Source: Limisphaerales bacterium (GTDB lineage Bacteria; Verrucomicrobiota; Verrucomicrobiia; Limisphaerales; SXTU01). From it: a stretch of DNA of 64,000 nt. The position numbers and the translations under genes are program-made. This document shows, piece by piece, positions 2,254 to 41,952 of this stretch. How positions within the stretch are numbered: the first letter of the stretch is position 1; each line of letters starts with the position of its first letter. The notes beneath the pieces are model-generated. The model did not search any database, was not told where the DNA came from, and was given only the letters and a program-made list of their open reading frames with translations. The stretch is taken from assembly GCA_009773355.1 (NCBI GenBank), contig WRPG01000015.1, positions 1-64,000 on the forward strand, read 5' to 3'.

Positions 2254-2322
2254 GGTCAACGGTGGATTGTCGGAAAACCGGAGGTGGGCGCGCCCCTGAT
2301 GCAGCGCGAGGAGAGAACAGAC

Positions 2323-2334
2323 AAGGCCCGGCGG
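2323..2334 (-). repeat. Retron a2 inverted repeat
   Basis: Twelve nt (plus strand AAGGCCCGGCGG) perfectly complementary to 2460-2471. It lies about 70 nt before the RT start and would close the base of the retron RNA. Confidence 0.85.
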
Positions 2335-2359
2335 CGGATTACTTCCGAGGCTCTGGACT

Positions 2360-2395
2360 CAGGGCCTCCCTGCGTTGCGAACGTAGGGAACCCTG
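2360..2395 (-). ncRNA. Predicted msd hairpin
   Basis: An imperfect stem-loop on the minus strand: CAGGG pairs with CCCTG, TCCCT with AGGGA and CGTT with AACG around a CGC tip, separated by small internal mismatches. It sits where the reverse-transcribed msd stem is expected. Confidence 0.7.
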
Positions 2396-2420
2396 GCGAT
2401 GTATGGCTACCAAGTTTCCA

Positions 2421-2439
2421 CCGCGGCGAAACACCGCGG
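2421..2439 (-). ncRNA. Predicted msr hairpin with UUU loop
   Basis: The minus strand reads CCGCGGTG-TTT-CGCCGCGG, an 8-bp stem with one G-U pair and a three-U loop. The E. coli Ec86 msr has a comparable U-loop stem recognised by its RT. Confidence 0.8.
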
Positions 2440-2459
2440 CAATGATGGCTAACCCATGT

Positions 2460-2471
2460 CCGCCGGGCCTT
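2460..2471 (-). repeat. Retron a1 inverted repeat, overlapping a stop codon
   Basis: The minus strand reads AAGGCCCGGCGG, the exact complement of a2. Its first two A residues are the last two bases of the TAA that ends the SWIM gene, so the retron RNA is embedded in the mRNA tail. Confidence 0.85.
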
Positions 2472-5963: not shown

Positions 5964-6017
5964 ATGTGGTTGGTTTAGCAAGCTGCGACCTAGGAAGCAA
6001 CGCCGAGGTTTAGCGTC

Positions 6018-12902: not shown

Positions 12903-13286
12903 ATGACGGACACGAGCCAAACCCAGAGCCCGGCGCTCCACGTTTTGTTTCGCCCCGTGGGGCCGCGTGAGCTGAGACTCATCGCCGCGAGCGGCTACCG
13001 GGAGTTTCCGCCCCGGCTCCCAGAGCAGCCCATCTTCTACCCGGTGCTGAACGAGGACTACGCCCGGCAGATTGCCCGGGACTGGAATGCCCCGGACAGT
13101 GGGGTTGGCTTCGTGACGCGCTTCGCCGTTCCGGCCGAGTTCGTCACGCACTACCCAGTTCGCACCGCGGGTGCTTCGCATCACCAGGAGCTGTGGGTGC
13201 CGGCGGAGGAACTGGCGGCGTTCAACCAGCAGATCGTCGGCCTCATCGAGGTCATCGCCGAGTATCGGCGGGAGGGACGGCCATGA
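12903..13286 (+). CDS. Small protein of the family often labelled ADP-ribosylation/crystallin J1
   Basis: The protein has 127 residues. Motifs such as FRPVG, FPPRLPEQPIFYPVLNEDYA, ARDWN and HQELWVPAEEL match my memory of a small conserved family labelled ADP-ribosylation/crystallin J1 in databases; its biochemical activity is not known to me. ATG at 12903 follows the palindromic operator with almost no leader. Its stop overlaps the NADAR start as ATGA. As first gene of an operon of ADP-ribose hydrolases it could be a substrate-recognition or modifying partner. No ADP-ribosyltransferase catalytic triad is evident by eye. Confidence 0.7.
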   Translation: MTDTSQTQSPALHVLFRPVGPRELRLIAASGYREFPPRLPEQPIFYPVLNEDYARQIARDWNAPDSGVGFVTRFAVPAEFVTHYPVRTAGASHHQELWVPAEELAAFNQQIVGLIEVIAEYRREGRP

Positions 13287-13722
13287 ACCGTATTGAGTTT
13301 TATCGGATCAACGAACCGTTCGGGGAGTTCTCCAATTTCTCGCCTCATCCGATCGTCTTGCACGGTCGTCGGTGGCCGACGGTCGAGCATTACTTTCAAG
13401 CACAGAAGTTCTCCGGCACCGAGCATGTGGAGACGATCCGGCTTGCGCATTCGCCGATGGTGGCAGCTCGCCTGGGCCGCAGTCGCCAGCGTCCGCTGAG
13501 GCAGGATTGGGAGTCCGTGAAGGACGGCGTGATGCGGGAGGCGCAGCAAAGTTCACGCAACACGCGACACTCCGCGTGCTGCTGCTCTCGACCGGCGACG
13601 CGGAGCTGGTCGAGCACACCACCAACGACTCATACTGGGCGGACGGAGGCGACGGGCGGGGCCGCAACCGGCTGGGCGAACTGTTGATGGAGCTGCGGGC
13701 CAAATTGCCAATCATGCCCTGA
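13283..13722 (+). pseudogene. NADAR-family (YbiA-like) ADP-ribose glycosidase, frameshifted
   Basis: The N-terminal two thirds read in one frame ([48 protein letters not shown]) and the C-terminal third in another ([45 protein letters not shown]). Together they make one complete NADAR domain, so a single-base loss near 13540-13546 breaks it. NADAR proteins act on N-glycosidic ADP-ribose compounds, including ADP-ribosylated guanine, or on riboflavin intermediates. No clear slippery site is seen at the break, so a sequencing error or recent inactivation is more likely than programmed frameshifting. Both halves keep conserved residues, which argues for recent breakage. Confidence 0.85.
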
Positions 13723-13724
13723 CC

Positions 13725-14414
13725 ATGCCTCACACCTATCAATACCCCCGTGCAGCACTGACCGTGGACTGCGTCGTCTTCGGCTTTGACGAGGGCGAGC
13801 TTAAGGTGCTGCTCATCCAGCGCGCCCTCGATCCCTTCAAGGCCCAATGGGCGCTGCCGGGCGGATTCGTTCGCCTGGACGAGACGCTGGACGCCGCCGC
13901 CCGCCGTGAACTGGCGGAGGAAACCGGCCTGCGGGACGTCTTTCTGGAGCAGCTCTTCACCTTCGGTGCGGTGGCGCGCGACCCGCGTGAACGGGTGGTG
14001 AGCGTGGCCTACTACGCGCTGGTGAAACTGGCGGGGCATGCCGCCTGCGCCGCGACGGATGCAGCGGATGCACAGTGGTTCCCAGTTTTCCAGGCACCTA
14101 GGCTGGCGTTCGACCACGCTGAAATCATCGCATCCGCGCTCGCCCGTGTGAAGGGGAAGGTCCGCTACCAGCCCATCGGTTTTGAGTTGTTGCCCCCGGA
14201 ATTTACTCTTTCTCAGCTCCAGCACCTGTATGAAGCCGTGCTGGGTGAGGCGCTGGACAAGCGAAATTTCCGGAAAAAAGTTCTGAGCTTCGGACTGCTG
14301 GCTCCGCTCAAGGAAACCTTCCGCTCTGCAGCCCACCGGCCGGCGCGACTGTTCCGGTTCGACGCAGACAAATACGAACGGCTCCGCCGCCGAGGCTTCA
14401 ACTTTGAATTGTGA
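13725..14414 (+). CDS. nrtR: NrtR-like Nudix hydrolase/transcription regulator of NAD metabolism
   Basis: The protein has 229 residues. The N-terminal Nudix domain has a complete box at about 47-69 (GFVRLDE...[10 protein letters not shown]). From about 145 is the winged-helix domain typical of NrtR ([36 protein letters not shown]). NrtR proteins repress NAD-salvage genes and respond to ADP-ribose through the Nudix pocket; many have a degenerate box, but this one looks intact, so it may also hydrolyse ADP-ribose-type substrates. It sits among ADP-ribose hydrolases, downstream of a palindrome that could be its operator. A plain ADP-ribose pyrophosphatase is the alternative. Confidence 0.85.
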
Positions 14415-14447
14415 ACGGGTGCCCATGCAGGCCGCCATCATCAGGTT

Positions 14448-15284
14448 ATGAATCGAGAAAATAGGATCACGCTTGCCCAGAGCACCGCCGCTATCTCTGA
14501 GTCCGGGCACTACCGGGCTGAGTGCGGCGTGGAAGTGCATATCGCGGACGCGGTGCGGGAGGCGGTCGCGGGCACTGTCCTGCTCTCCCCGAGCGACTTC
14601 GCCAGCCTCCAGCCGAAACGGCGCGCCTCCAGCACCCTGATCGAAGTCACCAAAGAAACCACGGTGGGCGCATTGTTGCGATTGAACCCACAGGCGGGCT
14701 CATTGGGTTGCCTCAACTTTGCCTCGGCGAGGAATCCTGGCGGCGGATTCCTCACCGGTGCGCAGGCGCAAGAGGAGTCACTGGCCCGGACATCCGCACT
14801 GCATCGCTGTCTTCTGGCCGCCCCCGCATTCTACGCCCGCAACCGGGAGAACCGCTCCACCCTTTATCTGGACCTGGTGATTTTCTCCCCGCGCGTTCCG
14901 TTCTTCCGCGATGACAAAGGGCGACTGCTGGATCAGCCGGTGCTGGCCTCGGTCATTACTGCTCCCGCACCGAATGCGGGAGCGATGGCACAGAACGAGC
15001 GGGAGAACCTTCATCTCATCGAGCCAGCCCTGAAGCGGCGGGCGGAGTTCGTGCTGGCGGTGGCCGCGGCCAAGGGGATCGAGCGGCTCGTGCTGGGTGC
15101 TTGGGGCTGCGGTGTTTTCCGGAACGATCCCGCTACCGTGGCACAAGCCTTTGGCGATCAGTTGCTCGACGAGGGACGATTCCGCGATGTGTTCTCGGAA
15201 GTTGTGTTCGCCGTGTTTGATCCAACCAAGGAACAGGAGACATACCGGGCCTTCGTCCGTGCATTTGCCAAAGGCCGCTCATGA
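14448..15284 (+). CDS. Microbial PARG-like (TIGR02452 family) poly/mono-ADP-ribose glycohydrolase
   Basis: The protein has 278 residues. The diagnostic stretch NPGGGFLTGAQAQEESLART at about 99-118 is the GGG...QE(E) loop of bacterial-type PARG macrodomains, which holds the catalytic Glu. The later AAAKGIERLVLGAWGCGVFRNDP is the macrodomain signature near the C-terminus. The family removes ADP-ribose from proteins or cleaves ADP-ribose polymers. ATG at 14448 lies 34 nt after the nrtR-like stop. The stop overlaps the next start as ATGA, indicating coupling to the cREC-ARH fusion. Confidence 0.9.
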   Translation: MNRENRITLAQSTAAISESGHYRAECGVEVHIADAVREAVAGTVLLSPSDFASLQPKRRASSTLIEVTKETTVGALLRLNPQAGSLGCLNFASARNPGGGFLTGAQAQEESLARTSALHRCLLAAPAFYARNRENRSTLYLDLVIFSPRVPFFRDDKGRLLDQPVLASVITAPAPNAGAMAQNERENLHLIEPALKRRAEFVLAVAAAKGIERLVLGAWGCGVFRNDPATVAQAFGDQLLDEGRFRDVFSEVVFAVFDPTKEQETYRAFVRAFAKGRS

Positions 15285-16621
15285 ACTCCATCCTCCTATT
15301 GGAAGACAACCCAGACCGGATCACGGCGTTCCAGCAAGCAATCTCAATGCTCGGCCCAGACTATGAGCTGAAGTTCTGGCATGACGCGCCGACGATGGTG
15401 GCCGAATGTGAGCGCTGGTTCCCGGAGGCCGCGCTGATCTCCTTGGATCATGATTTGAATCCAATGCCCGGGGCGTCCGGTGATCCCGGCACCGGTCTGG
15501 ATGTGGCCATGTTTCTGGCCGAGTGCTGCCCGGTCTGCCCCGTGCTGGTGCATTCGTCGAACGTCGAGCGTGCTTGGTCCATGCACAACGAATTGCGATT
15601 CGCCAAGTGGGCGGTGGAGCGGGTCGGACCCATCGGCGACGACTGGATAGGAAAGTCCTGGCTGTCGAAAGCCCGTGAACTGCTGGGCGCACAGGCGAAC
15701 ACCTGGCCGGCGAGAATCCCCGCAGACCACGCCGCCCGACTTGAGCGCGCGCAACTCTCGCTGGACGGCTTATCGGTGGGTGACGGGTTTGGCCAATGCT
15801 TCTTCGTGGACGCCGAAGTTGCCAGCGAACGCATTCAGCAGAGCGAAGCCCCGCCGTCGCCCTGGTTTTATACCGACGACACGGCGATGGCCGTCTCGAT
15901 CGTCCGCACGTTGAAGCGTTATGGCCACATCGAACCAGACGCGCTGGCCGGCGCATTCGCGCGTGAGTATGCGCGCGATCCCAGGCGCGGTTACGGCGGA
16001 ACGGCACACGGCATTCTTCAGGCCATTGGGCAGGGCACAGCGTGGCAGACGGCAGCCGGACGTGTATTCGATGGCGCGGGGTCGTGCGGGAACGGTGGGG
16101 CCATGCGGGCCGCCCCCATCGGGGCTTACTTTGTGGACGACATCCCCAAAGTGATTTCCGAAGCACGCGCGTCAGCGGCGGTAACCCACGCGCATCCTGA
16201 TGGCCAGACCGGAGCCATTGCCATCGCACTCGCGACAGCGTGGTTCGCCCAGCGACGCAGCGAGAGCCTCCGCCCGGGCATGGAGGTCATTGAATTCGTC
16301 CTGGAGCATTTGCCCCACACGGAAACCTACTACCGGCTAAAGAAAGCCCTGAGCCTGCCGTTGCAACTTTCTCCTGCGACCGCCGCCTGCGTGCTGGGGA
16401 ACGGTTCGCAGGTGATCGCCTCCGACACCGTCCCGTTCTGCTTGTGGTGCGCCGCCCGTCATCCCAACGACTATGTGCAGGCGCTTTGGGCGACTGTGAG
16501 TGCGTTCGGTGATCGGGATACAACTTGCGCCATCGTCGGCGGAATCGTCGCGGTCGGGGTGGGGCGAGCGGGCCTGCCCGATGACTGGCTTGCGTCGCGA
16601 GAACCCTTGCCCCGGCTGTGA
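15281..16621 (+). CDS. cREC receiver-like domain fused to ADP-ribosylglycohydrolase
   Basis: The protein has 446 residues. About 1-136 is a receiver-like fold (ILLLEDNPDR, SLDHDL at 55-59, VLVHSSN at 88-94) matching the cREC family, predicted to process cyclic phosphates in RNA-repair contexts. From about 155 is an ADP-ribosylglycohydrolase of the DraG/ARH type: YTDDTAM at 197-203, AGSCGNGGAMRAAPIG, THAHPDGQTGA and FGDRDTTCAIVGGI carry the metal-binding Asp residues. The fusion links cyclic-phosphate chemistry to ADP-ribose removal. That fits the adjacent KptA, which makes ADP-ribose 1'',2''-cyclic phosphate. Domain calls are from motifs; the activity of cREC is a published prediction. Confidence 0.88.
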   Translation: MNSILLLEDNPDRITAFQQAISMLGPDYELKFWHDAPTMVAECERWFPEAALISLDHDLNPMPGASGDPGTGLDVAMFLAECCPVCPVLVHSSNVERAWSMHNELRFAKWAVERVGPIGDDWIGKSWLSKARELLGAQANTWPARIPADHAARLERAQLSLDGLSVGDGFGQCFFVDAEVASERIQQSEAPPSPWFYTDDTAMAVSIVRTLKRYGHIEPDALAGAFAREYARDPRRGYGGTAHGILQAIGQGTAWQTAAGRVFDGAGSCGNGGAMRAAPIGAYFVDDIPKVISEARASAAVTHAHPDGQTGAIAIALATAWFAQRRSESLRPGMEVIEFVLEHLPHTETYYRLKKALSLPLQLSPATAACVLGNGSQVIASDTVPFCLWCAARHPNDYVQALWATVSAFGDRDTTCAIVGGIVAVGVGRAGLPDDWLASREPLPRL

Positions 16622-16629
16622 AGGAATCG

Positions 16630-17196
16630 ATGAACCCAAAAGACCAAACTCGGCTGAGCAAGTTTCTCAGCCTCGTGCTCCGCCATCAACCGGAACAGGT
16701 GGGCATCACGCTCGACCGCGCCGGTTGGGTGGAAATCGAAGCGCTGCTGGCGGCGCTGAACCAGCATGGTTGCCAGTTGGACCGGGAAGGCCTGGACGCA
16801 CTGGTCCGCGCCAGCGACAAGCAGCGGTTTGCCCTCAGCGTCGACGGGCTGCGGATTCGCGCCAGCCAGGGCCACTCGGTGTCCGTGGATCTGCAATACG
16901 AACCACAGCCGCCGCCGGAGCTGCTCTACCATGGCACGCCCGCCCGGTTTGTGGACGCCATCCGGAGACAGGGCCTGCTCAAGCTACAGCGTCACCATGT
17001 CCACTTGTCGGCAGAGGAGGCCACCGCAGTGCGGGTTGGCCAGCGTCGTGGCACGGCCGTGGTCCTGACGATTCGCACGGGTGAGATGCGCCGCTCCGGG
17101 CACACTTTCTACCGCTCGGCCAATGGCGTGTGGCTCGTGGACCATGTGCCGCCCCAATTCATTGAGTTTCCTTACCCAACAACAAAAGATGAGTGA
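16630..17196 (+). CDS. kptA: RNA 2'-phosphotransferase KptA/Tpt1
   Basis: The protein has 188 residues, the normal KptA length. LSKFLSLVLRHQP at 9-21 opens the N-terminal winged domain with the conserved Arg18-His19. LRIRASQGHS at 74-83 and LYHGT at 99-103 belong to the NAD-binding ART-like domain, with HVHLS at 123-127 and the basic RVGQRRGT following. The enzyme transfers an internal RNA 2'-phosphate to NAD+, releasing nicotinamide and ADP-ribose cyclic phosphate. ATG at 16630 has AAGGAA just upstream and is preferred over the GTG at 16618. The 3' end overlaps the next start. KptA homologues also make ADP-ribose 5' caps on nucleic acid, so capping is an alternative role. Confidence 0.92.
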   Translation: MNPKDQTRLSKFLSLVLRHQPEQVGITLDRAGWVEIEALLAALNQHGCQLDREGLDALVRASDKQRFALSVDGLRIRASQGHSVSVDLQYEPQPPPELLYHGTPARFVDAIRRQGLLKLQRHHVHLSAEEATAVRVGQRRGTAVVLTIRTGEMRRSGHTFYRSANGVWLVDHVPPQFIEFPYPTTKDE

Positions 17197-18160
17197 CACG
17201 ATCTCCATCCGTGATCGGATGCTCGGCGGCCTGTGGGGTGCGCTGGTCGGCGACGCCTTGGGCGTGCCGGTCGAGTTTCTCTGCCGCAGCGATGTGCGGC
17301 TAAACCCGGTCACGGACATGCGCGGTCATGGCACGCACCGGCAGCCGCCCGGCACATGGTCAGACGACGGGGCGCTCACGCTCTGCACGGTGGACAGTCT
17401 CATCCGGCACGAGTTCGACACGAAGGACATGGGGCGGCGGTTTCTTTCGTGGTATCGCGAGGAACTCTGGACGCCGCACGGCAAGCTGTTCGATGTGGGG
17501 GTGACGACGGCGGATGCCCTCCAACGCATCGCCTGCGGGATTTCGGTCGAACTCGCCGGCGGCGATGGGCAGTTCACCAATGGCAACGGTTCGCTGATGC
17601 GAATCTTGCCGATCGCCCTGCGTTTTCATCGGGAGCCGGCCAAGACGATTGTGGACCGGATCCACCGGGTGTCCGCCATCACGCACCGCCATCCACGCTC
17701 GCAAATGGCGTGTGGTTTGTTTGCCTTGGTAGTGAGACATCTTCTGGAAGGCGCCCAGCCGGATGCGGCAGTTGCGCACGGGCTGGACGCATTCCGTGTC
17801 CAATATGAGAGCCATCCATGGTGGGGAGCGGAATGGGATTACTTCCAACTGCTGCTAGCCGGAAATCTCGCTGACCTGCCGGAGCAGGAAATCAAGTCGG
17901 GTGGCTACGTCATCGAAACACTGGCCGCCAGCCTCTGGTGCCTCCTGACCACGCGAAGCTTCCCGGAGTGCGTGCTCAAAGCCGTAAATCTCGGCGGCGA
18001 CACGGATACCACCGGATGCGTTGCGGGTGGACTGGCCGGGGTGTGCTATGGCGTGCCGGCCGTGCCGAAAGAGTGGCAGCGGGCGCTGGCTCGTGCCGAG
18101 GATCTAAACGGGTTGTTCAACCACTTCGTCGAGCGAGCGGTTCCACCAGCGTCAACATGA
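17189..18160 (+). CDS. ADP-ribosylglycohydrolase (ARH/DraG family), second copy
   Basis: The protein has 323 residues of the standard single-domain type. LWGALVGDALGVPVEF at 15-30 is the family N-terminus, GTWSDDGA at 55-62 gives the first metal-binding Asp pair, TNGNGSLMRILPIAL and AITHRHPRSQ follow, and NLGGDTDTTGCVAGGLAG gives the second metal site. Such enzymes remove ADP-ribose from arginine, serine or nucleic acid ends with two Mg ions. ATG at 17189 lies inside the end of kptA, and the stop overlaps the third glycohydrolase as ATGA. The substrate cannot be told from sequence. Confidence 0.92.
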   Translation: MSDTISIRDRMLGGLWGALVGDALGVPVEFLCRSDVRLNPVTDMRGHGTHRQPPGTWSDDGALTLCTVDSLIRHEFDTKDMGRRFLSWYREELWTPHGKLFDVGVTTADALQRIACGISVELAGGDGQFTNGNGSLMRILPIALRFHREPAKTIVDRIHRVSAITHRHPRSQMACGLFALVVRHLLEGAQPDAAVAHGLDAFRVQYESHPWWGAEWDYFQLLLAGNLADLPEQEIKSGGYVIETLAASLWCLLTTRSFPECVLKAVNLGGDTDTTGCVAGGLAGVCYGVPAVPKEWQRALARAEDLNGLFNHFVERAVPPAST

Positions 18161-19221
18161 AGGTCGCGACTCCTTTCGTGCAACGGCGCGAGCAGCTCGC
18201 CGGCTTGATGCTCGGCACGGCCGTGGGTGATGCATTGGGGTTGCCGGCAGAAGGTCTCTCACCCGGGCGCATCGCCCGGCGCTGGCCGGGAAAGTGGCAG
18301 CACCGGTTCATCGCCGGTCGCGGCATGTGGAGTGACGATACGGAACACATGCTGTGCGTTGCGGCGGCGCTGCTGACCGCCGGCGATTCGCCCGGGCAGT
18401 TTCAACGTGAACTGGCGCGCCGCCTGCGCTGGTGGTTTGCGGGGCTGCCCGCCGGCGTCGGGCTGGCAACGGCGCGGGCGTGCCTCAAGCTGTGGCTGGG
18501 CGTTTCGCCAACTCGGAGCGGCGTGTTCTCAGCGGGCAACGGCCCCGCCATGCGCTCCGCGCTCATCGGGGCCTGTTTCGCGGAGGACGACAAACGCCGT
18601 CGAGATTTCACCGCAGCCTCCACGCAGCTCACCCATACGGACCCGCGAGCTTTTACTGCGGCGCTGGCCGTGGCCGAGGCGGCGGCCTGGGTGGCACGGG
18701 GCGAACCGTCGAGGCGGGAGTTTCTCCAGTTGCTGCCATCGCTGGGTGAGGACGCGGAATGGCAATCGCTGTGTGATGCCATGCGGGTCAGCTTGGAACA
18801 GGGGGATTCCGTCGCCGTCTTCGCCCGCAGATTGGGTGCGGAGCGCGGGGTCAGCGGCTACGCATATCACACGGTGCCGGTGGCGTTGTTCGCGTGGCTG
18901 CGGCACCCGCAGGACTTCGCGACCGCGCTGACTGGCGCGCTGGATTGCGGCGGTGACACTGACACAGTCGGAGCGATTGTCGGCGCGCTGGCGGGCGTCG
19001 AAGTGGGCACGGCAGGGATTCCGACGGATTGGGTCACGGGCATAATTGAATGGCCGCGGGACACTGACTTTATCCGGCGGCTCGCGGACGAACTGGCGGG
19101 CAATACTGGGCGCGTTCCGCCGGGTGCCGGATGGCGGGGCCTGGCAACGCTGCCGCGAAACCTGCTCTTTCTGGCCATTGTCCTGACGCACGGCGCGCGC
19201 CGGCTCTTGCCACCCTATTGA
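18157..19221 (+). CDS. ADP-ribosylglycohydrolase (ARH/DraG family), third copy
   Basis: The protein has 354 residues. LMLGTAVGDALGLPAEG, GMWSDDTEHML, SAGNGPAMRSALIGACF, THTDPRAFTAAL and DCGGDTDTVGAIVGALAG are the ordered ARH motifs with both metal-binding Asp clusters intact. Sequence divergence from the other two copies suggests different substrates rather than recent duplication. ATG at 18157 overlaps the preceding stop. The C-terminal 70 residues end in a hydrophobic, basic stretch (LLFLAIVLTHGARRLL) that could be a membrane-associating tail. It is followed after 24 nt by the MoxR ATPase gene, so the ADP-ribose block and the MoxR block may share a transcript. Confidence 0.9.
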   Translation: MKVATPFVQRREQLAGLMLGTAVGDALGLPAEGLSPGRIARRWPGKWQHRFIAGRGMWSDDTEHMLCVAAALLTAGDSPGQFQRELARRLRWWFAGLPAGVGLATARACLKLWLGVSPTRSGVFSAGNGPAMRSALIGACFAEDDKRRRDFTAASTQLTHTDPRAFTAALAVAEAAAWVARGEPSRREFLQLLPSLGEDAEWQSLCDAMRVSLEQGDSVAVFARRLGAERGVSGYAYHTVPVALFAWLRHPQDFATALTGALDCGGDTDTVGAIVGALAGVEVGTAGIPTDWVTGIIEWPRDTDFIRRLADELAGNTGRVPPGAGWRGLATLPRNLLFLAIVLTHGARRLLPPY

Positions 19222-19245: not shown

Positions 19246-20829
19246 ATGGGCCTGCTTGATGTCTTCCAGCGCGTTTCCCAAGCGCCAACCAATCCGCATC
19301 CCGCTGCCGCAACGCGCACCTTCGACGTTGCGGACTTGTATCAGGGCCCGGTCGCCGACCGTTCCGAGGTTCCAGCGGACGGCGGCCTGCCGCTCGATGA
19401 GAAGCTGCGCCAGGCATATTTCTGGATCGTCAACACGGCGATCATCAGCCCGCACTACGACATCGAATACAACGAAGGGGCGCCCCAGCAATTTGTCCTG
19501 GGCGACAGCAAGTGCCGGCTGACGCTGCCTTCCGCGCAGAGCTACTCCAGCTTCGTCCTGCTGCCGCTGCTAACCTTCGCCACCCGGCGCAAGTGCCTGT
19601 TCGTGGGCGGTCCCGGCCGGGGCAAGACCGCCAGCGCCATTCTCATGGGTATCCTCGCCGGGTATCCGGTGCGGGAGGTGCGGCGGGCCATGCAGCACGG
19701 CCATCCGCAGATGACCATCGCGGACCTGCTCGGCAACCCGTTGCCCGCCGACCTCGTGCAGGCGCAGAGCATGGACGACATCCGCATCGCCTGGCGCAAA
19801 TGGCTGGGGATGCGCGTGAAGATCGTGGACGAATACAACCGCATCCCCACGCGCACCCAGAGCGCGCTGCTCACGGTGATGGGCGACAACTATGCGGAGC
19901 TGCTCAACCACATCTATGAGTGCCCCGAGTCCGCGTGGTTCCTCACCGCGAACGACGACCAGGGCGGCGGCACCTACCAGGTGATCGAGGCGCTGCGCGA
20001 CCGCATTGATGTCATCGTCCAGGCGCTGCCCTTCAACACCCGTTTCCTGGCCGATCTGCTGACGCGATTGGAGGAGAACGTCCGCCCGGAGGAGATGGTC
20101 CCACGACAGATCATTTTCACCGAGGCCGAGGTGGACCGGCTACAGGAGGAGATCCGCGCGGTCGCGCTGCCGGTGGAACTGCGCCGGCGGCTGGAGTTCT
20201 TCACCAGTCAGTTCGAGTTCTGCGAGGCGGCGGGCGAGCAGTTCGAATACCGGACGAAGGACACCGCGCGCCTCGCCGGGGTGGAGTGGCATACGCTCAC
20301 CGCGCAGGACACGGGACGCGACCGGCTCAAGGACCTCGGCTGCCAGACCCGCAACGGCCTCTCGGTGCGGATGCTCATGACGCTGCTGACCTACGCCAAG
20401 GCGGTCGCCTATTTCCGTGGGAATCGTGTGGTGGAACTCGAAGACCTGCGCCAGAGCCTCCCCTTCGTGCTGCATGACAAGCTCGTGCCCGATCCCGATG
20501 CGCCGTTCTTCGACGCGCCGGGCAACGCGGCGCTCCGCACCGACCGCATCAGCTGGCTCCGCAAGCTGTTTGATGCCGCCTGTGCCGAGTTTGACCGGCT
20601 CAACCTGGACCGGGAGGACCCGGTGGGAACGCTGATGCAGGAGTTCGGGCGCGGACTGGACGGCGTGACCGAGGGCGAAGCCCGCAGCCGGCTGGTAAAG
20701 GTCGAGCGGGCCATCGCCGAACTGGCCAAGGGACGCAAGCTCTACGGCCATCTCTACGATGACCTGCTCCAGCTCAAATACCTCCACCAGCGCTATACGA
20801 ACTACCTGCGCTGGCTGAAAACGCAATGA
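19246..20829 (+). CDS. MoxR-family AAA+ ATPase of a vWA ternary-type system
   Basis: The protein has 527 residues. Walker A GGPGRGKTAS is at 121-130, Walker B VKIVDEYNRIP near 192-202, sensor FLTANDDQGGGTY near 228-240, followed by an arginine-containing FNTRFLADLL and a helical C-terminal lid. MoxR ATPases act as chaperone-like partners of vWA proteins, and the vWA partner is two genes downstream. The 120-residue N-terminal extension is longer than in typical MoxR proteins. The stop overlaps the next gene by 4 nt. It opens a six-gene set with rSAM and adenylating enzymes. Confidence 0.9.
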   Translation: MGLLDVFQRVSQAPTNPHPAAATRTFDVADLYQGPVADRSEVPADGGLPLDEKLRQAYFWIVNTAIISPHYDIEYNEGAPQQFVLGDSKCRLTLPSAQSYSSFVLLPLLTFATRRKCLFVGGPGRGKTASAILMGILAGYPVREVRRAMQHGHPQMTIADLLGNPLPADLVQAQSMDDIRIAWRKWLGMRVKIVDEYNRIPTRTQSALLTVMGDNYAELLNHIYECPESAWFLTANDDQGGGTYQVIEALRDRIDVIVQALPFNTRFLADLLTRLEENVRPEEMVPRQIIFTEAEVDRLQEEIRAVALPVELRRRLEFFTSQFEFCEAAGEQFEYRTKDTARLAGVEWHTLTAQDTGRDRLKDLGCQTRNGLSVRMLMTLLTYAKAVAYFRGNRVVELEDLRQSLPFVLHDKLVPDPDAPFFDAPGNAALRTDRISWLRKLFDAACAEFDRLNLDREDPVGTLMQEFGRGLDGVTEGEARSRLVKVERAIAELAKGRKLYGHLYDDLLQLKYLHQRYTNYLRWLKTQ

Positions 20830-21836
20830 AGCTCAATGAACCGCTGGCCGCCGTGCTGCGCAACGGACGGGCCGATCTCAACGCCCGCTTTGCGGCGGCC
20901 AGGCGGGCTCGGCCGGCGCTTGATGCCGAGGCGTTCGGCGCATTCCTGGGCGCGGCGGTGGATCCGGTCGCCTGCGCGGTGGATCGCGCTCGGCCCGAGT
21001 GCGTCGGAGCCGTGGTGGACGTCGCCTACGACATCGCGCTCGACCTGGTGGGCCAGCAACTCACCGCCGCAGGCGCCCGCAGTCTGATGGTGAACCGGCT
21101 CTGGGAGCAGACGCTTCCCGCTGCGGCCAATCTAGTGGCGCAAAGCCCGGCGCAACTGTTGACCGCGCTCAACAACGCCGTGCTCCAACTGGCCGCCACC
21201 CCCGGCGCACGACCCGGCCAATGGCTCGACCTCATGCAGAAGGGAGCAACTTGTTGCGACACGCCCGAGGTGCTGCTCCGTTTCGGTCAGCTCGCGGCCT
21301 GGCGATCCGGCCTCGCGCATTACCGCACCAGCGCGCTGTCGGTGTCCCGCGATTTGCCGCCGGCAACTGCGCTGGCCGCACTCGGTGTGCCGCCTTCGTT
21401 GAACTGGCCAGCGGTTCGCGAACGGCTGGGTGGCGATCCTTGGTTCGACCCCTCCGCGAAGTCGCCGGCACGCGGCCTCCGGGTGGCGGGGCGGGCCGGG
21501 ACATTTCGCGGCTTCGGTGGTTTGTTCCCGGAGCCGCCCGTGGTGGCACTGGCGCAAGGGCGATTGCTGGTTCAGAGCGGATCGGATTGCTGGCACCTCA
21601 CGGCGGACTGCTTCGGCGCGACGTTCCATCGGGCGGCCAGCGCCGACTTTGAGCGAGGCAGGCAGGAACCGCAGTTGCCCGCTGTCCTGCGAATGAAAGG
21701 CTCAACGGTCCAGCGGGAACGAGAGTCGTTGGATCTTCATGAGCTTGGCCGGTTCACCAGCGCGGCCTGTGATGGCCGGACGCTGGCGCTTACTTCCGCC
21801 ACGACGCACGTCGTGGTGCTCGTCGCCCTGGTTTGA
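20826..21836 (+). CDS. Unrecognised ternary-system protein
   Basis: The protein has 336 residues and I do not recognise the family. The N-terminal two thirds are alpha-helical and Ala/Leu-rich (DIALDLVGQQLTAAGARSLM, LLTALNNAVLQLA). The C-terminal third turns to beta-strand and Gly-rich sequence (VAGRAGTFRGFGGLF, GRLLVQSGSDCWHLTADCFG). In MoxR-vWA systems a bpX-type protein commonly sits between the ATPase and the vWA gene, so it may be the adaptor of this set; that rests on position only. It overlaps the MoxR gene by ATGA and is followed 7 nt later by the zincin-vWA gene. Confidence 0.7.
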   Translation: MKLNEPLAAVLRNGRADLNARFAAARRARPALDAEAFGAFLGAAVDPVACAVDRARPECVGAVVDVAYDIALDLVGQQLTAAGARSLMVNRLWEQTLPAAANLVAQSPAQLLTALNNAVLQLAATPGARPGQWLDLMQKGATCCDTPEVLLRFGQLAAWRSGLAHYRTSALSVSRDLPPATALAALGVPPSLNWPAVRERLGGDPWFDPSAKSPARGLRVAGRAGTFRGFGGLFPEPPVVALAQGRLLVQSGSDCWHLTADCFGATFHRAASADFERGRQEPQLPAVLRMKGSTVQRERESLDLHELGRFTSAACDGRTLALTSATTHVVVLVALV

Positions 21837-21843
21837 GTCCCCG

Positions 21844-23673
21844 ATGCCCCGCAAAGCCAAGGCTTCCATGACCGCTCCCGCTTCGCTCCAGGCGCAGTGG
21901 GAGGCCGCGTGGCCGCAGGCGCTGGCGGTGTGGAGCAAGTTCACCCGCCTGCGTCCGCCGCGCCTGTGCCTGACCGGGGCGGAGGCCCAGGCCGAAGGCT
22001 TGTCGGGCAGCTTCGCGATGATCCGGCTGGTGGATCAGGCTGTCGTGGTCAGCCTGCCGCAGGTGATGGATTGCGGTGTCGAGCCCTTCGCTGTGGAAGT
22101 GCTCGCCCACGAGATCGGCCACCATGTCCTCGCGCCGGCCAACCTGACCGACCACGCCCGGATGCTGGCCCGGATGCGCCGCTCCCTGCCCACCGTCGAG
22201 CATCACGCGCCGATGGTTGCCAACCTTTACACGGACCTGCTCATCAACGACCGCCTCCAACGCGGAGCCAGCCTGCGGATCGCAGACGTTTACCGCGCGC
22301 TGGCCAAAGACGGAAGCGGCGGGGCGGTGTGGACGCTCTACCTCCGCATCTACGAACTACTTTGGAGCCTCGAACGTGGCTCGCTCGGCGGCGGGCGCAC
22401 CGATGACCGGCTGGAGGGCGATGCCTGGCTCGGCACCCGGCTGGTGCGCAGCTATGCACGGGACTGGCTCGACGGCTCGGGGCGCTTTGCCGCACTGCTG
22501 CTGCCGCATCTGCTGAAGGACGAGAAATCGAGCATGCTGGTCGAACGCTGGCTCGACACGCAAAACGCCGGGGCCGGGGGCGAACCCTCGGGGTTGGTCG
22601 AGGAGGAGGCTGGCGAGCGGGACGGCGCCATTCACCCGGCGGCCGACCCGGAACTTTCTGAATGTGACTCGGCGACTGACGGCGACGACACAAAGGCTCC
22701 GGTCGAGGCGAAGGGACAATCCGACGCGCACGGTCAGGCGCGTGAGCCATTCCAATACGGTGAACTGCTGCGCGCGGCGGGCATCCAGTTGACCGACCAC
22801 GAAGCCGCCGTGCGCTACTACCGCGAGCGCGCCCGGCCCCACCTGATTCGCTTTCCCTCGCGCCGAGTGCCAGAAAGCGCCGACCCGCTGCCGGAGGGGC
22901 TGGAACCGTGGGACATCGGCCAGCCGCTCGACACCGCCGACTGGCTGCAGAGCGTCCTCCAAAGCCCGCGCGTCATCCCCGGCATGACCACCGTGCAGCG
23001 CGTGTGGGGCACCACCGAGGGCCGCGAGCCGAAGCGTGAACCGCTGGACCTCGACCTCTACGTGGACAGCTCCGGCTCCATGCCGAATCCGCAGCAGCTC
23101 ACTTCGTTCCTCACGCTGGCGGGGGCGATCATCGGCCTCTCGGCGCTGCGCGCCGGCGCGCGGGTCCAGGTGACCCTGTGGAGCGGCAAGCATCAATTCA
23201 TCGGCACGGATGGCTTCGTGCGGGACGAAACCGAGGTGCTGCGGGTGCTGACTGGTTTCTTCGGCGGTGCGACCGCGTTTCCCATCCATGTGCTGCGGGA
23301 CACTTACGCGCGCCGCCGACCAGGTGCCCGTCCAGCGCACATCATGGTCATCTCGGATGACGGCGTCTCGACGCTGTTCGACCTAGATGAGCGCGGGCAG
23401 AGCGGCTGGACCGTGGCAGCGACAGCATTGGAGCGGGCCGGCGGCGGCGGAACCTTGGTGTTGAATCTGCCGCCCATGTGGGACCAGCCGGGCCGGAACA
23501 CCAGTTATTTGGCCCAAAGTCTGGACTGCATCTGTCGCGCGCGTGACGAGCAAGGGTGGCACGTTCATCGCGTGGCCGACTGGGCAGACTTGGTGGCGTT
23601 CGCGCGGGAATTCAGCCGGCGCAACTACGCGCCCGGCGAGGAGGCCGCACCGGCCGCCGGGAGGAGCGTTTGA
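21844..23673 (+). CDS. Zincin-like metallopeptidase fused to a vWA domain
   Basis: The protein has 609 residues. VLAHEIGHHVLAP around 86-98 carries HEIGHH, the zinc-binding HExxH of a metallopeptidase, in a helical domain reaching about residue 240. A low-complexity acidic linker follows (about 240-300). From about 400 is a vWA domain with MIDAS motif LYVDSSGSM, a GGATAF Thr motif and MVISDDG. The fusion predicts a metal-dependent interaction module that docks to the MoxR ATPase and carries a protease or binding head. ATG at 21844 is chosen because the longer frame overlaps the upstream gene; 21868 is another possible start. The C-terminus runs to within 1 nt of the radical SAM start. Confidence 0.88.
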   Translation: MPRKAKASMTAPASLQAQWEAAWPQALAVWSKFTRLRPPRLCLTGAEAQAEGLSGSFAMIRLVDQAVVVSLPQVMDCGVEPFAVEVLAHEIGHHVLAPANLTDHARMLARMRRSLPTVEHHAPMVANLYTDLLINDRLQRGASLRIADVYRALAKDGSGGAVWTLYLRIYELLWSLERGSLGGGRTDDRLEGDAWLGTRLVRSYARDWLDGSGRFAALLLPHLLKDEKSSMLVERWLDTQNAGAGGEPSGLVEEEAGERDGAIHPAADPELSECDSATDGDDTKAPVEAKGQSDAHGQAREPFQYGELLRAAGIQLTDHEAAVRYYRERARPHLIRFPSRRVPESADPLPEGLEPWDIGQPLDTADWLQSVLQSPRVIPGMTTVQRVWGTTEGREPKREPLDLDLYVDSSGSMPNPQQLTSFLTLAGAIIGLSALRAGARVQVTLWSGKHQFIGTDGFVRDETEVLRVLTGFFGGATAFPIHVLRDTYARRRPGARPAHIMVISDDGVSTLFDLDERGQSGWTVAATALERAGGGGTLVLNLPPMWDQPGRNTSYLAQSLDCICRARDEQGWHVHRVADWADLVAFAREFSRRNYAPGEEAAPAAGRSV

Positions 23674-23674
23674 C

Positions 23675-24643
23675 ATGATCGTCGTCTGGCGCGTCACCCA
23701 GCAGTGCAACTTGGCCTGCCAGTTCTGCGCGTATGACCGCACGCTGGCCTGGCCGCGCAACGAGGCCGACCCGGCCGTCATCCGACGCTTCGGGACGGTG
23801 CTAGCGGCGTATCAGCAGCAGACCGGCGACCGGGTGCTGGTAAGCTGGCTCGGTGGCGAACCGCTGCGGTGGCCGCCGCTGGCCGAATTGTCAGGCCACT
23901 TCCACCACGACCTCGATCTGCGCGTCAGCACCACCACCAACGGCACGACGCTGTCCTCGCCCGCGGTCCGGCAACACCTGATTGAGACACACGCCGAACT
24001 GACGGTCAGTGTGGACGGATTGAACGAATTCCACGACGACGTGCGTGGCTGGCCCGGCGGCTTCGCGGCGTTGCGGACTTCCGTAACCGCACTGGCTGCG
24101 GAGAAGCGGGCGTTGGGCAAAGGCCCGTTGCTGCGGGCCAATGTGGTGCTCATGCGCGACAACCTCGCCGGGTTTCCCCGGCTCTGCGAGGAACTCGCCG
24201 GCTGGGGCATCGAACAAATCTCCTTCAACCAACTGGGCGGGAACGACCGGCCGGAATTCTTCCCGGCCCAACGGCTCCTGCCGGAGCAGGTCCGCTGGCT
24301 CGCGGCTGAACTGCCCGCCCTGCGCACCCGGCTGTGCACACGGGGAGTGCAACTGCTGGGCGGCCCGGGCTACCTGCGACGTATCGCGGCCACCACGGCG
24401 GACGAGCGGCTACCGGTCACTGATTGTCAACCCGGCGAGCGCTTTTTGTTCATCAACGAGGCGGGGAGCGTTGCGCCGTGCTCGTTCACCGTGCGCGAGT
24501 GCGGGGTGCCGTTGACGGAACTGGTCACCGCCGAGGATGTCCAGCGGCTGCCGCTACGCTTCGCCGCCGCCCGATTGTCCCGAAGCCCTCTGGCTTGCGG
24601 GGATTGCCATAGCACCCAGGTATTTGAGAAGTTCAGCCGCTGA
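23675..24643 (+). CDS. Radical SAM enzyme with C-terminal Cys cluster (SPASM-like)
   Basis: The protein has 322 residues. TQQCNLACQFCAYD carries the radical SAM CxxxCxxC (Cys11, 15, 18) that binds the SAM-reducing 4Fe-4S cluster. WLGGEPLRW is the GGE motif and STTTNGT the following strand. The C-terminal DCQPGERF, PCSFTVRECG and ACGDCHSTQ give extra Cys residues as in SPASM or twitch auxiliary clusters. Such enzymes commonly modify peptides. Here the gene sits between a zincin-vWA protein and an adenylating enzyme, which hints at modification of a protein or small molecule within the system. The stop is 2 nt before the next start. Confidence 0.9.
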   Translation: MIVVWRVTQQCNLACQFCAYDRTLAWPRNEADPAVIRRFGTVLAAYQQQTGDRVLVSWLGGEPLRWPPLAELSGHFHHDLDLRVSTTTNGTTLSSPAVRQHLIETHAELTVSVDGLNEFHDDVRGWPGGFAALRTSVTALAAEKRALGKGPLLRANVVLMRDNLAGFPRLCEELAGWGIEQISFNQLGGNDRPEFFPAQRLLPEQVRWLAAELPALRTRLCTRGVQLLGGPGYLRRIAATTADERLPVTDCQPGERFLFINEAGSVAPCSFTVRECGVPLTELVTAEDVQRLPLRFAAARLSRSPLACGDCHSTQVFEKFSR

Positions 24644-24645
24644 CG

Positions 24646-25230
24646 ATGGAACGCGAAGGACCAACGCTCGAATCGCTCACCCGCCGCCTGGCGGAGACGC
24701 CGGAGGATTTTCTCGCGGAACCACGCATCGGCAACCGGGGCAGCGTGCGCGTGGAGGCCGTGGTAAACGATCTCCTTCAGTTGCTCTCCGCCCCGGCCGA
24801 GGCAAGGGCGCTTACCGGCTTCGCGGGCCAGGACCCTGCCCGGGACCGCAACCGGCTCGCCGTCACGATGCTGTTGTGCTGGCTGCTGGCGGACGAATGG
24901 TTCGCCTCGGCGCATCCCACGGCTGACCAACTGCTGACCCTGCTGGTCGAGATGCCAACCCAACTGGCTCCGCAAGTGGCCGCAAAGAAGTTTGTGGCCG
25001 ACCCGGAACGCCGCGAGGAACTCGCCCGGCTGGTGCTGGCCCGGCTGGGATTCCGACCGGGCGGCGAGACGCTCGCGCAGGCGCAGGACCGGCTCACCAG
25101 CCTGAGCTCCACCGAGCGGACACGGGTGATGCAGGCGGCGCGTGCCGCCGAGCAGCGTGCCCGGCAAATCCGCGAGGCGCTCGCGCGGAAGGCAGCCGAG
25201 GAATCGGCGGACAAGTGGGCACGCGAATGA
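24646..25230 (+). CDS. Unrecognised helical protein of the MoxR-vWA set
   Basis: The protein has 194 residues and an unknown family. The middle segment (RNRLAVTMLLCWLLADEWF, LLTLLVEMPTQLAPQV) is helical and hydrophobic but too interrupted for a clear membrane segment. The last 45 residues are Arg/Ala/Glu-rich and likely coiled coil (RVMQAARAAEQRARQIREAL). It is 2 nt after the radical SAM gene and its stop overlaps the adenylating-enzyme start, so co-translation with both is likely. A bridging or chaperone role is only a guess. Confidence 0.7.
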   Translation: MEREGPTLESLTRRLAETPEDFLAEPRIGNRGSVRVEAVVNDLLQLLSAPAEARALTGFAGQDPARDRNRLAVTMLLCWLLADEWFASAHPTADQLLTLLVEMPTQLAPQVAAKKFVADPERREELARLVLARLGFRPGGETLAQAQDRLTSLSSTERTRVMQAARAAEQRARQIREALARKAAEESADKWARE

Positions 25231-26582
25231 ATGAGCCTCCCATCACCGATGCGGACCGTTATCCGACTCTGACGGAAGCCGGGCGGCGGATGATTGAGTT
25301 CCTGCGCGAACACCCGCACGCGCCGATCTACCGCAACGAGAGTGGCAATCGCCTGACCGCTGCCGATGTGGAACGGGTGCGCGCCTTTGCCCGTGAGGCG
25401 GCGGAAGCCCGCGTCGGCTGGGCACCCGGCTCGCTGCCACAATGGCTGCCGGAATTGGTCGAGCGATGCTATGCGGAAGTGCCGTTTTACCGCCGGCACG
25501 GCTCGGCTCCCGCGCGTTTGGCGGAGGTGCCGACCACCAGCCGGGCGGACCTCAGCCGGGACATCGCTCAGTTCGTCCCGGATACCGCACCAGTGGAGCG
25601 GCTCATCAACTTCCGCACGAGCGGCACCTCGGGACATCCGCTGCTGCTGGCCTCCGACCCGGTGGTGGCCGCCAGCTATCTGGCCTTTCACCAGCGGGCG
25701 TTCCGGCGCTTCGGCATCGAGCTGCGGCACAGGAGTGGCCAGGTGGGCGTGGTGCTCGTCGGCTTCCAGCGCAAGTGCTTCACCTACGTTTCCGTCACCC
25801 CGACGATGGGTGAATCAGGCCTGGCGAAAATCAATTTGCACCCGGACGATTGGCGGGCGCCTGGCGATGCGGCGAAATATCTGGATGCACTCGCGCCGGA
25901 GGTTTACACCGGCGACCCCATCTCCCTCGCCGAACTGGCGAAGCTGCCGTTCCAGACGCGGCCCCGCGCGCTGCTCTCCACCAGCATGGCGCTGCTGCCC
26001 GGCATGCGGCAGCGGCTGATGGAGCAGTTCGGCTGTCCCGTGCTGGACCTCTACTCGATGAACGAAGCCGGCCCGGTGGCCGTGGCGGATGAGCAAGTCG
26101 GCGGGCATGTGCTGCTGCAGCACCGGCTCTTTGTGGAGATACTGGATGCGAACGGACAGGCTGTGCCGCCGGGCGAGCGCGGCGAAGTCACCCTCACCGG
26201 AGGCTTCAATTTCTGCCTGCCGCTCCTGCGCTATCGCACCGGGGACTTTGCCGCACTGCGTTTCCTGGGCGAGGAACCGGTGCTGGTCGGACTGGAGGGC
26301 CGTCCCCCGGTGCGCTTCCGCACCATGCGGGGTGAGTGGCTCAACAACATCGAAGTGACGCACACGCTCCAACGGTATGTGCTGCCGCGTTTCACCCTGC
26401 ACCAAGGGGCGGATGGCGCATTGCAGTTGAACGCCGTCGCATTGGGGGCAAGCAAGGCCGACGTTCGTGCCGCATTACTCGATCTCTTTGGCCCGGGTCA
26501 GCCTCTTGCGCTCGACGAGGTCCAAACCTTTGGCGACAAGGTCGTGCAATACACCTCGGACTTGGCTGGGAGCGAACCGTGA
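25227..26582 (+). CDS. PaaK/CapK-like adenylate-forming enzyme
   Basis: The protein has 451 residues. FRTSGTSGHPLLL near 129-141 is the P-loop-like motif of adenylate-forming enzymes, YSMNEAGPVA the A5-type motif and RYRTGDFAAL the A7-type motif. FRTMRGEWLNNIEVT leads into the small C-terminal subdomain, as in phenylacetate-CoA ligase and CapK relatives. These enzymes activate a carboxylate as an acyl-adenylate and usually pass it to CoA or an amine. The substrate is unknown. ATG at 25227 overlaps the upstream stop. It ends the plus-strand series, 21 nt from the stop of the convergent SWIM gene. Pairing with a radical SAM enzyme and MoxR-vWA suggests a modification branch. Confidence 0.88.
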   Translation: MNEPPITDADRYPTLTEAGRRMIEFLREHPHAPIYRNESGNRLTAADVERVRAFAREAAEARVGWAPGSLPQWLPELVERCYAEVPFYRRHGSAPARLAEVPTTSRADLSRDIAQFVPDTAPVERLINFRTSGTSGHPLLLASDPVVAASYLAFHQRAFRRFGIELRHRSGQVGVVLVGFQRKCFTYVSVTPTMGESGLAKINLHPDDWRAPGDAAKYLDALAPEVYTGDPISLAELAKLPFQTRPRALLSTSMALLPGMRQRLMEQFGCPVLDLYSMNEAGPVAVADEQVGGHVLLQHRLFVEILDANGQAVPPGERGEVTLTGGFNFCLPLLRYRTGDFAALRFLGEEPVLVGLEGRPPVRFRTMRGEWLNNIEVTHTLQRYVLPRFTLHQGADGALQLNAVALGASKADVRAALLDLFGPGQPLALDEVQTFGDKVVQYTSDLAGSEP

Positions 26583-33379: not shown

Positions 33380-33380
33380 G

Positions 33381-37076: not shown

Positions 37077-37080
37077 TGGT

Positions 37081-40240: not shown

Positions 40241-41239
40241 TCAACTCACCGCCGAGGGCGGCTGCCACGCGGAGGCGCGAAACAGCTCTTGCACGGCTCG
40301 CAGCGCCTCCGCCAGCCGTTGCGCGTGCGGCCCGCGCAGCAGCCGCCACGGCACGGGCTGCGCGGCGAGCTCGGCCTCGAACCAGCCGTGCATTTCGTGC
40401 CGGATGTGTTCCCCATCCCGCAAGCCATCTTGGGCGAAAGGGATTTCATCGCCCGTGAGCAGGTAGAGGTCGCAGCGGCCTTGGCGGGCAATCTCGGCAA
40501 CGGCTGGACTGTGCGTGCCTAGATAGCGGCGATGCCAGATAACGGTCGCAAAGGCGTTGGTGTCACACACCAACACCCGGTTAGCCGCACACGCGGCGGC
40601 ATCCTCCCGTCGAGCCTGCTCGCGGGCGATGGCTGTAAACTCTTCCGTGTGCCAATGCACTTCGTTCCGCGCAGCCTTGCGCGCCGAGTATTCGCGGCCG
40701 AACTCGGGCACCCAGACAGTTCCGAGCCGGTGGGCGAGCGCCTCGGCGAGGGTGGTGGTGCCGGTGGATTCCGCACCGAGCACACAGACGCGCTGGGCGA
40801 ACCAGCCTTGCACCGGCGGTTCGAGGAAATCCCAATGCACAAACGGATCGCCGCGCACGGCCGTGCCCGAGACCGGCACCCGCCTGCGCGCCTGGTCCAC
40901 CAGCACATGGCGGCTGCCCATCAACGCGGCGTAGCGCTCCCCGTAGTCCTCGGACGTGAACACCGCGTCGGGCGCGCCCCCCAGCCAGCGGAGGGTGTTC
41001 TCCGCCCACACGCGGGAATCCTGAGCGTCGTAGCGGTCGTCAATGAGCATGACCTCGGCGTGGGGATGGATGTCCCGCAGCCAGGCGGCGCGCCGCTCCC
41101 CCGGAATCAGATCGCAGGGTTTGCCGCACACGATGACCACCACGCGCGCGGACTGTTCAGTGGCCGTGTCAATGAGGAGCTTGTGCCCGTGGTGCGGCGG
41201 GAGGAATTTTCCGATGACCAGTCCCAGTCCGATTTTCAT
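40241..41239 (-). CDS. nadR: NadR-like NMN adenylyltransferase / ribosylnicotinamide kinase
   Basis: The protein has 332 residues. N-terminal GLVIGKFLPPHHGHK holds the HxGH nucleotidyl-transfer motif, with AENTLRWLG and VSGTAVRGDP following as in NMNAT domains. The C-terminal kinase half begins with VCVLGAESTGTTTLAEAL, a Walker A-like loop, and has VPEFGREYSARK. The two domains turn imported nicotinamide riboside into NMN and then NAD. It lacks the E. coli NadR N-terminal repressor helix-turn-helix. It overlaps pnuC as ATGA, giving a transport-plus-salvage operon that would replenish NAD used by KptA and other NAD-dependent chemistry nearby. Confidence 0.93.
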   Translation of the reverse strand: MKIGLGLVIGKFLPPHHGHKLLIDTATEQSARVVVIVCGKPCDLIPGERRAAWLRDIHPHAEVMLIDDRYDAQDSRVWAENTLRWLGGAPDAVFTSEDYGERYAALMGSRHVLVDQARRRVPVSGTAVRGDPFVHWDFLEPPVQGWFAQRVCVLGAESTGTTTLAEALAHRLGTVWVPEFGREYSARKAARNEVHWHTEEFTAIAREQARREDAAACAANRVLVCDTNAFATVIWHRRYLGTHSPAVAEIARQGRCDLYLLTGDEIPFAQDGLRDGEHIRHEMHGWFEAELAAQPVPWRLLRGPHAQRLAEALRAVQELFRASAWQPPSAVS

Positions 41240-41952
41240 CCAGCGCTTCCTTTGCTCGGGCACCGTCGCAACCATTCGCGCAGACCGGCGAGGCACATCA
41301 GCAGGAACACCCCGTAGAGCACTGCGGTGAGCGGCAGCCCCCGGCTCAAGTAGAGCGGGACATAGAGGATGTCGGCGGCGATCCAGAAGAACCAGTTTTC
41401 GAGCCGTTTGCGGCAGAGCAGGTATTGGGCGGCCAGGCTGAGCGCCGTGGTGACGGCGTCGCCCAGCGGGGCAGCGCCGTTGGCAGCGAACAGCACGCAC
41501 ACCAGCGCCCACGTTCCCAACGGGACGGCGAGCGCGAGGGCGACCCACTCCGTCTTCGTTGTCCGGGTGATGGCAAGGGGAGCATCCCGGCGACCATGCA
41601 CCCAGTTCCACCAGCCGTAGAGGCCAAGGCCGAGGTAAACAACTTGCAGCCCCATGTCCGCATAAAGCCGTCCCTGTAAAAACAGAATGAAGAAGAAGAC
41701 GTTGTTCGCGAGGCCGACGGGCCAGTTCCAGACATGCTCCCGCACCACGAGCCAAACGCAGACGCCGCCAGTTGCGAATCCCAACGCCTCGGTCAAAGCG
41801 ATGGACCACCAACCGAGCAACGAGGCTGCCAACGTGATCGTCGAACCCGCAAACATCACCAGCCACTCTGCGGGCGCGAGTGTCGGCTGGGCGAGCGCGC
41901 GGCCGGGTGCCGGCTCCGCCCCCAGCGCCCCGCAAACAGGTTTCGAATCCAC
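41236..41952 (-). CDS. pnuC: Nicotinamide riboside transporter PnuC
   Basis: The protein has 238 residues with about seven transmembrane helices (ALGFATGGVCVWLVV, GLANNVFFFILFLQ, VVYLGLGLYGWWNWV, WVALALAVPLGTWALVCVLF and others). The Trp/Asn-rich signatures NWPVGLANN and YGWWNW and the late CRKRLENWFFWIAAD motif mark the PnuC family. It imports nicotinamide riboside by facilitated diffusion, driven by phosphorylation by NadR, encoded next. ATG at 41952 gives a 30-residue cytoplasmic N-terminus; an internal Met near 33 is an alternative start. No palindrome like that at 12868 is seen upstream. Confidence 0.93.
   Translation of the reverse strand: MDSKPVCGALGAEPAPGRALAQPTLAPAEWLVMFAGSTITLAASLLGWWSIALTEALGFATGGVCVWLVVREHVWNWPVGLANNVFFFILFLQGRLYADMGLQVVYLGLGLYGWWNWVHGRRDAPLAITRTTKTEWVALALAVPLGTWALVCVLFAANGAAPLGDAVTTALSLAAQYLLCRKRLENWFFWIAADILYVPLYLSRGLPLTAVLYGVFLLMCLAGLREWLRRCPSKGSAG

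Follow-up and report, generated by a model that had tools for sequence, protein, structure and literature searches.

Within the 64,000-nt stretch of Limisphaerales bacterium DNA analysed here (the window; assembly GCA_009773355.1, contig WRPG01000015.1, positions 1 to 64,000), six same-strand (+) genes at 19246-26582 form a cassette, here lettered A to F, in which a MoxR-type ATPase and a von Willebrand factor A (vWA) protein stand beside a radical S-adenosylmethionine (SAM) enzyme and an adenylate-forming enzyme:

19246..20829, + strand: A, MoxR-clade AAA+ ATPase of 527 amino acids (family search, homologues)
20826..21836, + strand: B, protein of 336 amino acids without known family, helical domain plus partial WD-like propeller (AlphaFold2, fold search, homologues)
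21844..23673, + strand: C, HEIGHH metallopeptidase-like head, long linker and C-terminal vWA domain (motifs, predicted structure)
23675..24643, + strand: D, radical SAM enzyme with extra cysteines (family searches, alignment)
24646..25230, + strand: E, helical protein of 194 amino acids without known family (homologues)
25227..26582, + strand: F, PaaK/DVU_1553-like adenylate-forming enzyme (family searches, motifs, structure matches)

All six open reading frames (ORFs) were confirmed where an earlier sequence-only reading of the window had placed them, with the longest-ORF starts of C, D and F corrected to 21844, 23675 and 25227, respectively. That reading had described closely linked genes for a MoxR protein, an HExxH-vWA protein, a radical SAM enzyme with extra cysteines, a PaaK-like enzyme and two proteins of no recognised family, and families, motifs and structure bear this composition out. 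As for the linkage, ATGA overlaps join A to B and E to F, and the remaining gaps measure 7 nt (B/C), 1 nt (C/D) and 2 nt (D/E); with all genes on one strand and overlapping or 1-7 nt apart, a single transcript is possible.

The same arrangement recurs in two phyla. A scan of the collection with C returned four relatives, and tblastn recovered A-B-C-D-E-F, with order and strand unchanged, in one metagenome-assembled genome (MAG) of Gemmatimonas (L010) and in two of Opitutaceae (L011, L012); a Verrucomicrobia MAG (L013) holds C to F and has A and B at a contig end elsewhere (L027), the six genes of G635 being split over two contigs (L027/L041). Three more genomes came from genome searches, G228 (L024), G877 (L029) and G884 (L034), each with all six genes in order. 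In total, six further genomes, drawn from Verrucomicrobiota and Gemmatimonadota, have the six in order, and a seventh has them on two contigs. G112 (L025:893-9124) holds a divergent, expanded variant that reads A, B, C, E′, F′, another short radical SAM gene, E and F, followed by an asparagine-synthase-like and a glycosyltransferase-like gene (both named from sequence).

The cassette is rare: A was found in 4 of 384 genomes of the class, and an independent search for E returned exactly those four. G213 has A-B, C and E on three separate contigs; since E tracks A even there, the association does not reflect only the co-transfer of one piece of DNA, and the parts of the cassette depend on each other. 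The sequence-only reading would have been undermined had the six genes rarely co-occurred elsewhere; instead, the set co-occurs in order at most sites found. Between L011 and L012, the ratio of nonsynonymous to synonymous substitution rates (dN/dS) ranges from 0.03 to 0.14 across the six genes (A: 98% identity, dN/dS 0.03), indicating purifying selection on all of them. It is therefore well supported that A to F form one functional unit. Searches of 96 further relatives, ten congeners among them, did not find C; plasmid protein searches gave no relatives, tblastn against 50,697 phage records matched neither A nor C, and a scan of IMG/VR gave no relative of A. In a midpoint-rooted MoxR tree, two gemmatimonad copies fall within the main verrucomicrobial group and the same-class copies of G112 and G213 branch apart, a pattern that fits transfer between phyla.

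A matches AAA_3 and AAA_lid_2 above the curated Pfam cut-offs, placing it in the MoxR clade; its Walker A (GGPGRGKT) and Walker B (VDEYN) motifs are intact and kept in homologues, and the protein is 65-81% identical in nine other genomes. By sequence, the vWA match of C is weak (VWA_2, 14.6 bits, under the cut-off). In the predicted structure, residues ~398-600 adopt a vWA fold (Z scores reaching 13.0 across 160-205 residues), with NorD and Rea1-MIDAS among the structural matches, and the metal-ion-dependent adhesion site (MIDAS) is complete (D408-S410-S412, T470, D505) and invariant across nine sequences, so that the model clearly presents the C-terminal part of C as a MIDAS vWA domain. The peptidase-like head proposed from the sequence held up in part. 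Its HEIGHH motif (H89, E90, H93, H94) is invariant and falls within residues 83-96, a stretch predicted to be helical; D131, 38 residues past the second histidine of HExxH, is likewise invariant, which fits a metallopeptidase head. The fold could not be confirmed: searches against Pfam at E 10 gave no zincin or DUF2201 family match, the head and the long linker between it and the vWA domain are modelled with low confidence, and when whole C was used for a fold search, vWA matches took up the result. The N-terminal part of C is thus a zincin-like candidate at the level of motifs.

For the two proteins of no annotated family, B and E, family searches returned nothing credible. The AlphaFold2 model of B (mean predicted local distance difference test score, pLDDT, 86.8) comprises an N-terminal helical domain (1-205) and a C-terminal partial WD-like propeller (213-336); the propeller has structural matches at Z 8-9.9 over 100-115 residues, and comparison of B with viral structures gave no significant match. 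E matched none of the solved structures. It adjoins F in every locus but G213, and the two are duplicated together in G112, which points to E and F acting as a pair.

D scores 44 bits against Radical_SAM and carries the CxxxCxxC motif (C11, C15, C18), GGEP, an invariant C171 and four further C-terminal cysteines (C251, C269, C308, C311); CxxxCxxC and the C-terminal four are kept in all eight of the orthologues compared. D is a radical SAM enzyme by these features, one SPASM/twitch-like auxiliary cluster is expected, and, falling under every equivalog cut-off shown, the protein belongs to no named subfamily. F lies marginally under the Pfam AMP-binding cut-off (29.7 vs. 29.9 bits) and matches PaaK structures (E 7e-15). 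Its conserved TSGTSGH, YSMNEAGP and RYRTGD motifs and an invariant C-terminal lysine (K438) identify it as an adenylate-forming PaaK-like enzyme. The best family and solved-structure matches of F are the DVU_1553-family AMP-dependent ligase and PaaK; at 91.9 bits against a cut-off of 300 for NF045666 (DVU_1553-type ligase, NCBIfam), F falls outside the DVU_1553 family proper, and it differs further in its partner E, which has no family match. As the sequence-only reading suggested, the system could possibly modify a peptide or acyl substrate.

That reading missed the strongest functional clue, the recurrent neighbours of the cassette. PnuC and NadR, which serve nicotinamide riboside uptake and nicotinamide adenine dinucleotide (NAD) synthesis, lie downstream of it, together or singly, in most other loci: PnuC then NadR directly follow F in L011, L012, L024 and L034, NadR directly follows F in L029, and an ADP-ribosylglycohydrolase (ARH) gene then PnuC follow F in L013. 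PnuC is present in just 1-2 copies per genome. Identity to the NadR of L012 is 51-84% for the linked copies, vs. 38% for the unlinked NadR of the window, which suggests that the linked genes move and diverge along with the cassette; the NadR proteins of L011, L012, L024 and L029 have an intact P-loop and a visible N-terminal GK(F/L)xPLH(R/K)GH motif. An ARH3 orthologue stands directly after F in G635 (58% identity) and ~1.5 kb from E in G213 (44%). Genes of the ARH3 type are enriched with the cassette, occurring in 4 of 10 cassette genomes vs. 4 of 48 sampled genomes without it; on these counts they are not diagnostic, and we rejected ARH3 as a strict marker of the cassette.

The cassette of the window closes an array of genes related to NAD+ and ADP-ribose, and a PnuC-NadR pair lies further downstream:

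12903..18160, + strand: upstream array, continuous and on the same strand as the cassette, its first gene small and of no named family
13283-13722, + strand: NADAR-family gene, TIGR02464 above cut-off on its first part, frame broken near 13557 (decayed gene or assembly error)
13725-14414, + strand: NrtR-type regulator, upstream array
14448-15284, + strand: TIGR02452/microbial PARG, upstream array
15281-16621, + strand: cREC-ARH, upstream array
16618-17196, + strand: KptA, upstream array
17189-18160, + strand: ARH, upstream array
18163..19221, + strand: ARH3, an ADP-ribosylglycohydrolase, ending 24 bp before A
to ~40310, − strand: NadR, paired with the window's PnuC (40310..41793)
41266-41793, − strand: PnuC, with no other PF04973 PnuC in the genome, ~14 kb away from the cassette

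Together, these contexts (uptake and synthesis, ADP-ribose removal, ADP-ribose-responsive regulation) lead us to infer NAD+/ADP-ribose as their common factor, and a link of the cassette to NAD is well supported. The upstream array is made of the parts of the NAD+/ADP-ribose and RNA-repair arrays (NADAR, KptA, PARG, ARH, NrtR) described in PMC9503650, a paper in which MoxR and radical SAM go unmentioned, so that the six-gene block is not described there.

Elsewhere in the window, a reverse transcriptase of PADLOC class RT_XIII (431 bits) adjoins its SWIM_XIII partner (477 bits) at 979-4095, followed by a 629-amino-acid protein without assigned family (4092-5981) and an 1848-amino-acid SF1 helicase that combines DUF4011, MTES_1575 nuclease and WGR domains and is PDC-S37-like by PADLOC (6018-11564). 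A second, separate MoxR-vWA cluster (26603-40062) converges on the cassette; it encodes a SWIM protein, VWA_CoxE, DUF5682, MoxR and two DUF4132 proteins, and presumably resembles the yeh genes of E. coli. Further downstream are a weak match to an AbiEii-like nucleotidyltransferase (42662-43513) and a phage-type integrase marginally under the cut-off (51651-52685).

Established MoxR-vWA pairs remodel a target that the partner protein binds (PMC9976466, PMC13036017). The cassette shares with NorQ/NorD and CbbQ/CbbO a MoxR protein and a second protein with an N-terminal target domain, a long linker and a C-terminal MIDAS vWA domain, the vWA domain of NorD being among the structural matches of C. 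It differs in that the N-terminal domain of C bears HEIGHH, in the additional radical SAM enzyme, adenylating enzyme, B and E, and in that no respiratory or Rubisco target was recognised beside it. The ATP-driven remodelling put forward from the sequence would, by analogy with the known pairs, suit A and C. As the layout of C (head, long low-confidence linker, vWA) is that of the established pairs, we propose that A and C remodel a target recognised via the HEIGHH head and B.

The reading we prefer, at a probability of roughly 45%, is a NorQD/CbbQO-like MoxR-vWA machine that acts on a target modified by D and E-F and is tied to NAD+/ADP-ribose turnover. A and C would form the ATP-driven remodelling complex, the MoxR ring acting on the vWA domain of C, whose HEIGHH head on its long linker would contact or cut the target; B would be a third subunit, either scaffold or target-binding. 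F would adenylate a carboxylate with E as its partner, and D, with one auxiliary cluster, would join E-F in making or attaching a modification, which the complex would install or act upon. The tie to NAD+ shows in host-dependent co-encoding, either with PnuC/NadR or with genes for removing ADP-ribose (ARH, joined in the window by KptA, PARG, NADAR and NrtR), and the machine would most likely consume NAD+/ADP-ribose or work when NAD+/ADP-ribose is disturbed.

Several observations weigh against this machine. L010 and G112 lack a linked PnuC or ARH, G112 having only a weak NadR-like fragment, and the window's own PnuC-NadR pair is diverged (37-41% to linked pairs) and 14 kb away, while ARH3-type genes also occur in the cassette-free genomes counted above. 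In G112, D is replaced by a very different radical SAM enzyme, and the genes placed in G213 are A, B, C and E. The zincin fold of the C head is putative. Finally, the cassette holds no target or precursor: the gaps between its genes encode neither a precursor peptide nor a carrier protein, which leaves B, E, a host protein or a small molecule as possible substrates.

The cassette might instead serve in conflict with phages or toxins, with the MoxR-vWA core as a 'ternary'-type machine that detects attack, D and E-F arming an effector, and the NAD genes replenishing NAD+ or reversing toxic ADP-ribosylation. We regard this as possible but doubtful. Its very patchy distribution, with absence from ten of ten congeners, would suit such a system, as would gemmatimonad copies that nest with verrucomicrobial ones and are nearer to the window's than two same-class copies are, and the window neighbours themselves (class XIII reverse transcriptase and SWIM protein, PDC-S37-like helicase, weak AbiEii match). 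In the part of PMC7159879 drawn on here, MoxR-vWA ternary conflict systems of VMAP, iSTAND, FtsH and beta-propeller types are described, and a radical SAM gene is present in simple FtsH-type ones; a MoxR-vWA core with a third component, a propeller fold in a partner and a radical SAM gene are thus common ground. However, Pfam recognised no VMAP, iSTAND or double-FtsH component among the six proteins, the partial propeller of B is a separate protein rather than a four-blade propeller-vWA, the P-loop is the canonical GGPGRGKT rather than GXXXTAKS, and the adenylating enzyme and NAD genes do not figure in that part of the source. PADLOC gave no match for any cassette protein except a generic viperin/radical SAM hit for D, no effector is recognisable, neighbours in other genomes look ordinary, and the slow evolution of the genes (exemplified by A) is unlike that of fast-evolving effectors.

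Less probable, and in our view unlikely, is a cofactor or natural-product pathway in which the product of D and E-F is a small molecule, possibly derived from NAD or a nicotinate, that A-B-C only loads or matures. The nearest families of F are the DVU_1553-type and FlxY/BagE PaaK-like ligases, PnuC-NadR linkage would agree with it, and so would the E-F duplication of G112 with its other radical SAM gene and the asparagine-synthase-like and glycosyltransferase-like genes behind it; yet one clear biosynthetic pair and a radical SAM enzyme are all that is present, tailoring or export genes are missing from most loci, and A and C are linked as strictly as D-F. A bolder and slightly more speculative proposal is a maturation system coupled to NAD salvage, in which radical SAM and adenylating chemistry would build a new NAD-derived (or ribosyl-nicotinamide-derived) cofactor or protein modification, to be inserted by a peptidase-equipped MoxR-vWA machine. 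A precedent that the sequence-only reading overlooked comes from group 2.2 jumbo phages, which encode a vWA co-chaperone with an N-terminal metallopeptidase domain next to MoxR (PMC7824862). Despite this identical domain pairing, descent from a virion- or complex-assembly chaperone acquired by bacteria is very improbable: no sequence match was detectable in the phage records (A and C) or in IMG/VR (A), phage structural genes were not recognised near the loci, and the cassette has four more genes and an NAD context. Hardly credible, finally, is a chance grouping of a MoxR-vWA pair with an unrelated radical SAM/ligase pathway; G213 and G112 show that gene order is not absolutely fixed, but the same order in two phyla and the co-occurrence of E with A where unlinked already contradict it.

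In open-licence papers, we found no description of the six-gene set, of MoxR with radical SAM and an AMP-dependent enzyme, or of MoxR with PnuC/NadR or with nicotinamide riboside, in agreement with the sequence-only reading, which knew no characterised member; a description outside that literature is possible. As a single conserved and transferable unit, the cassette brings MoxR-vWA remodelling together with radical SAM chemistry and with NAD metabolism, and its recurrent NAD neighbours point to an NAD-linked cellular machine without earlier description. If confirmed, it would offer a testable case for a MoxR-vWA role in NAD stress or repair and a function for two unannotated protein families, those of B and E.

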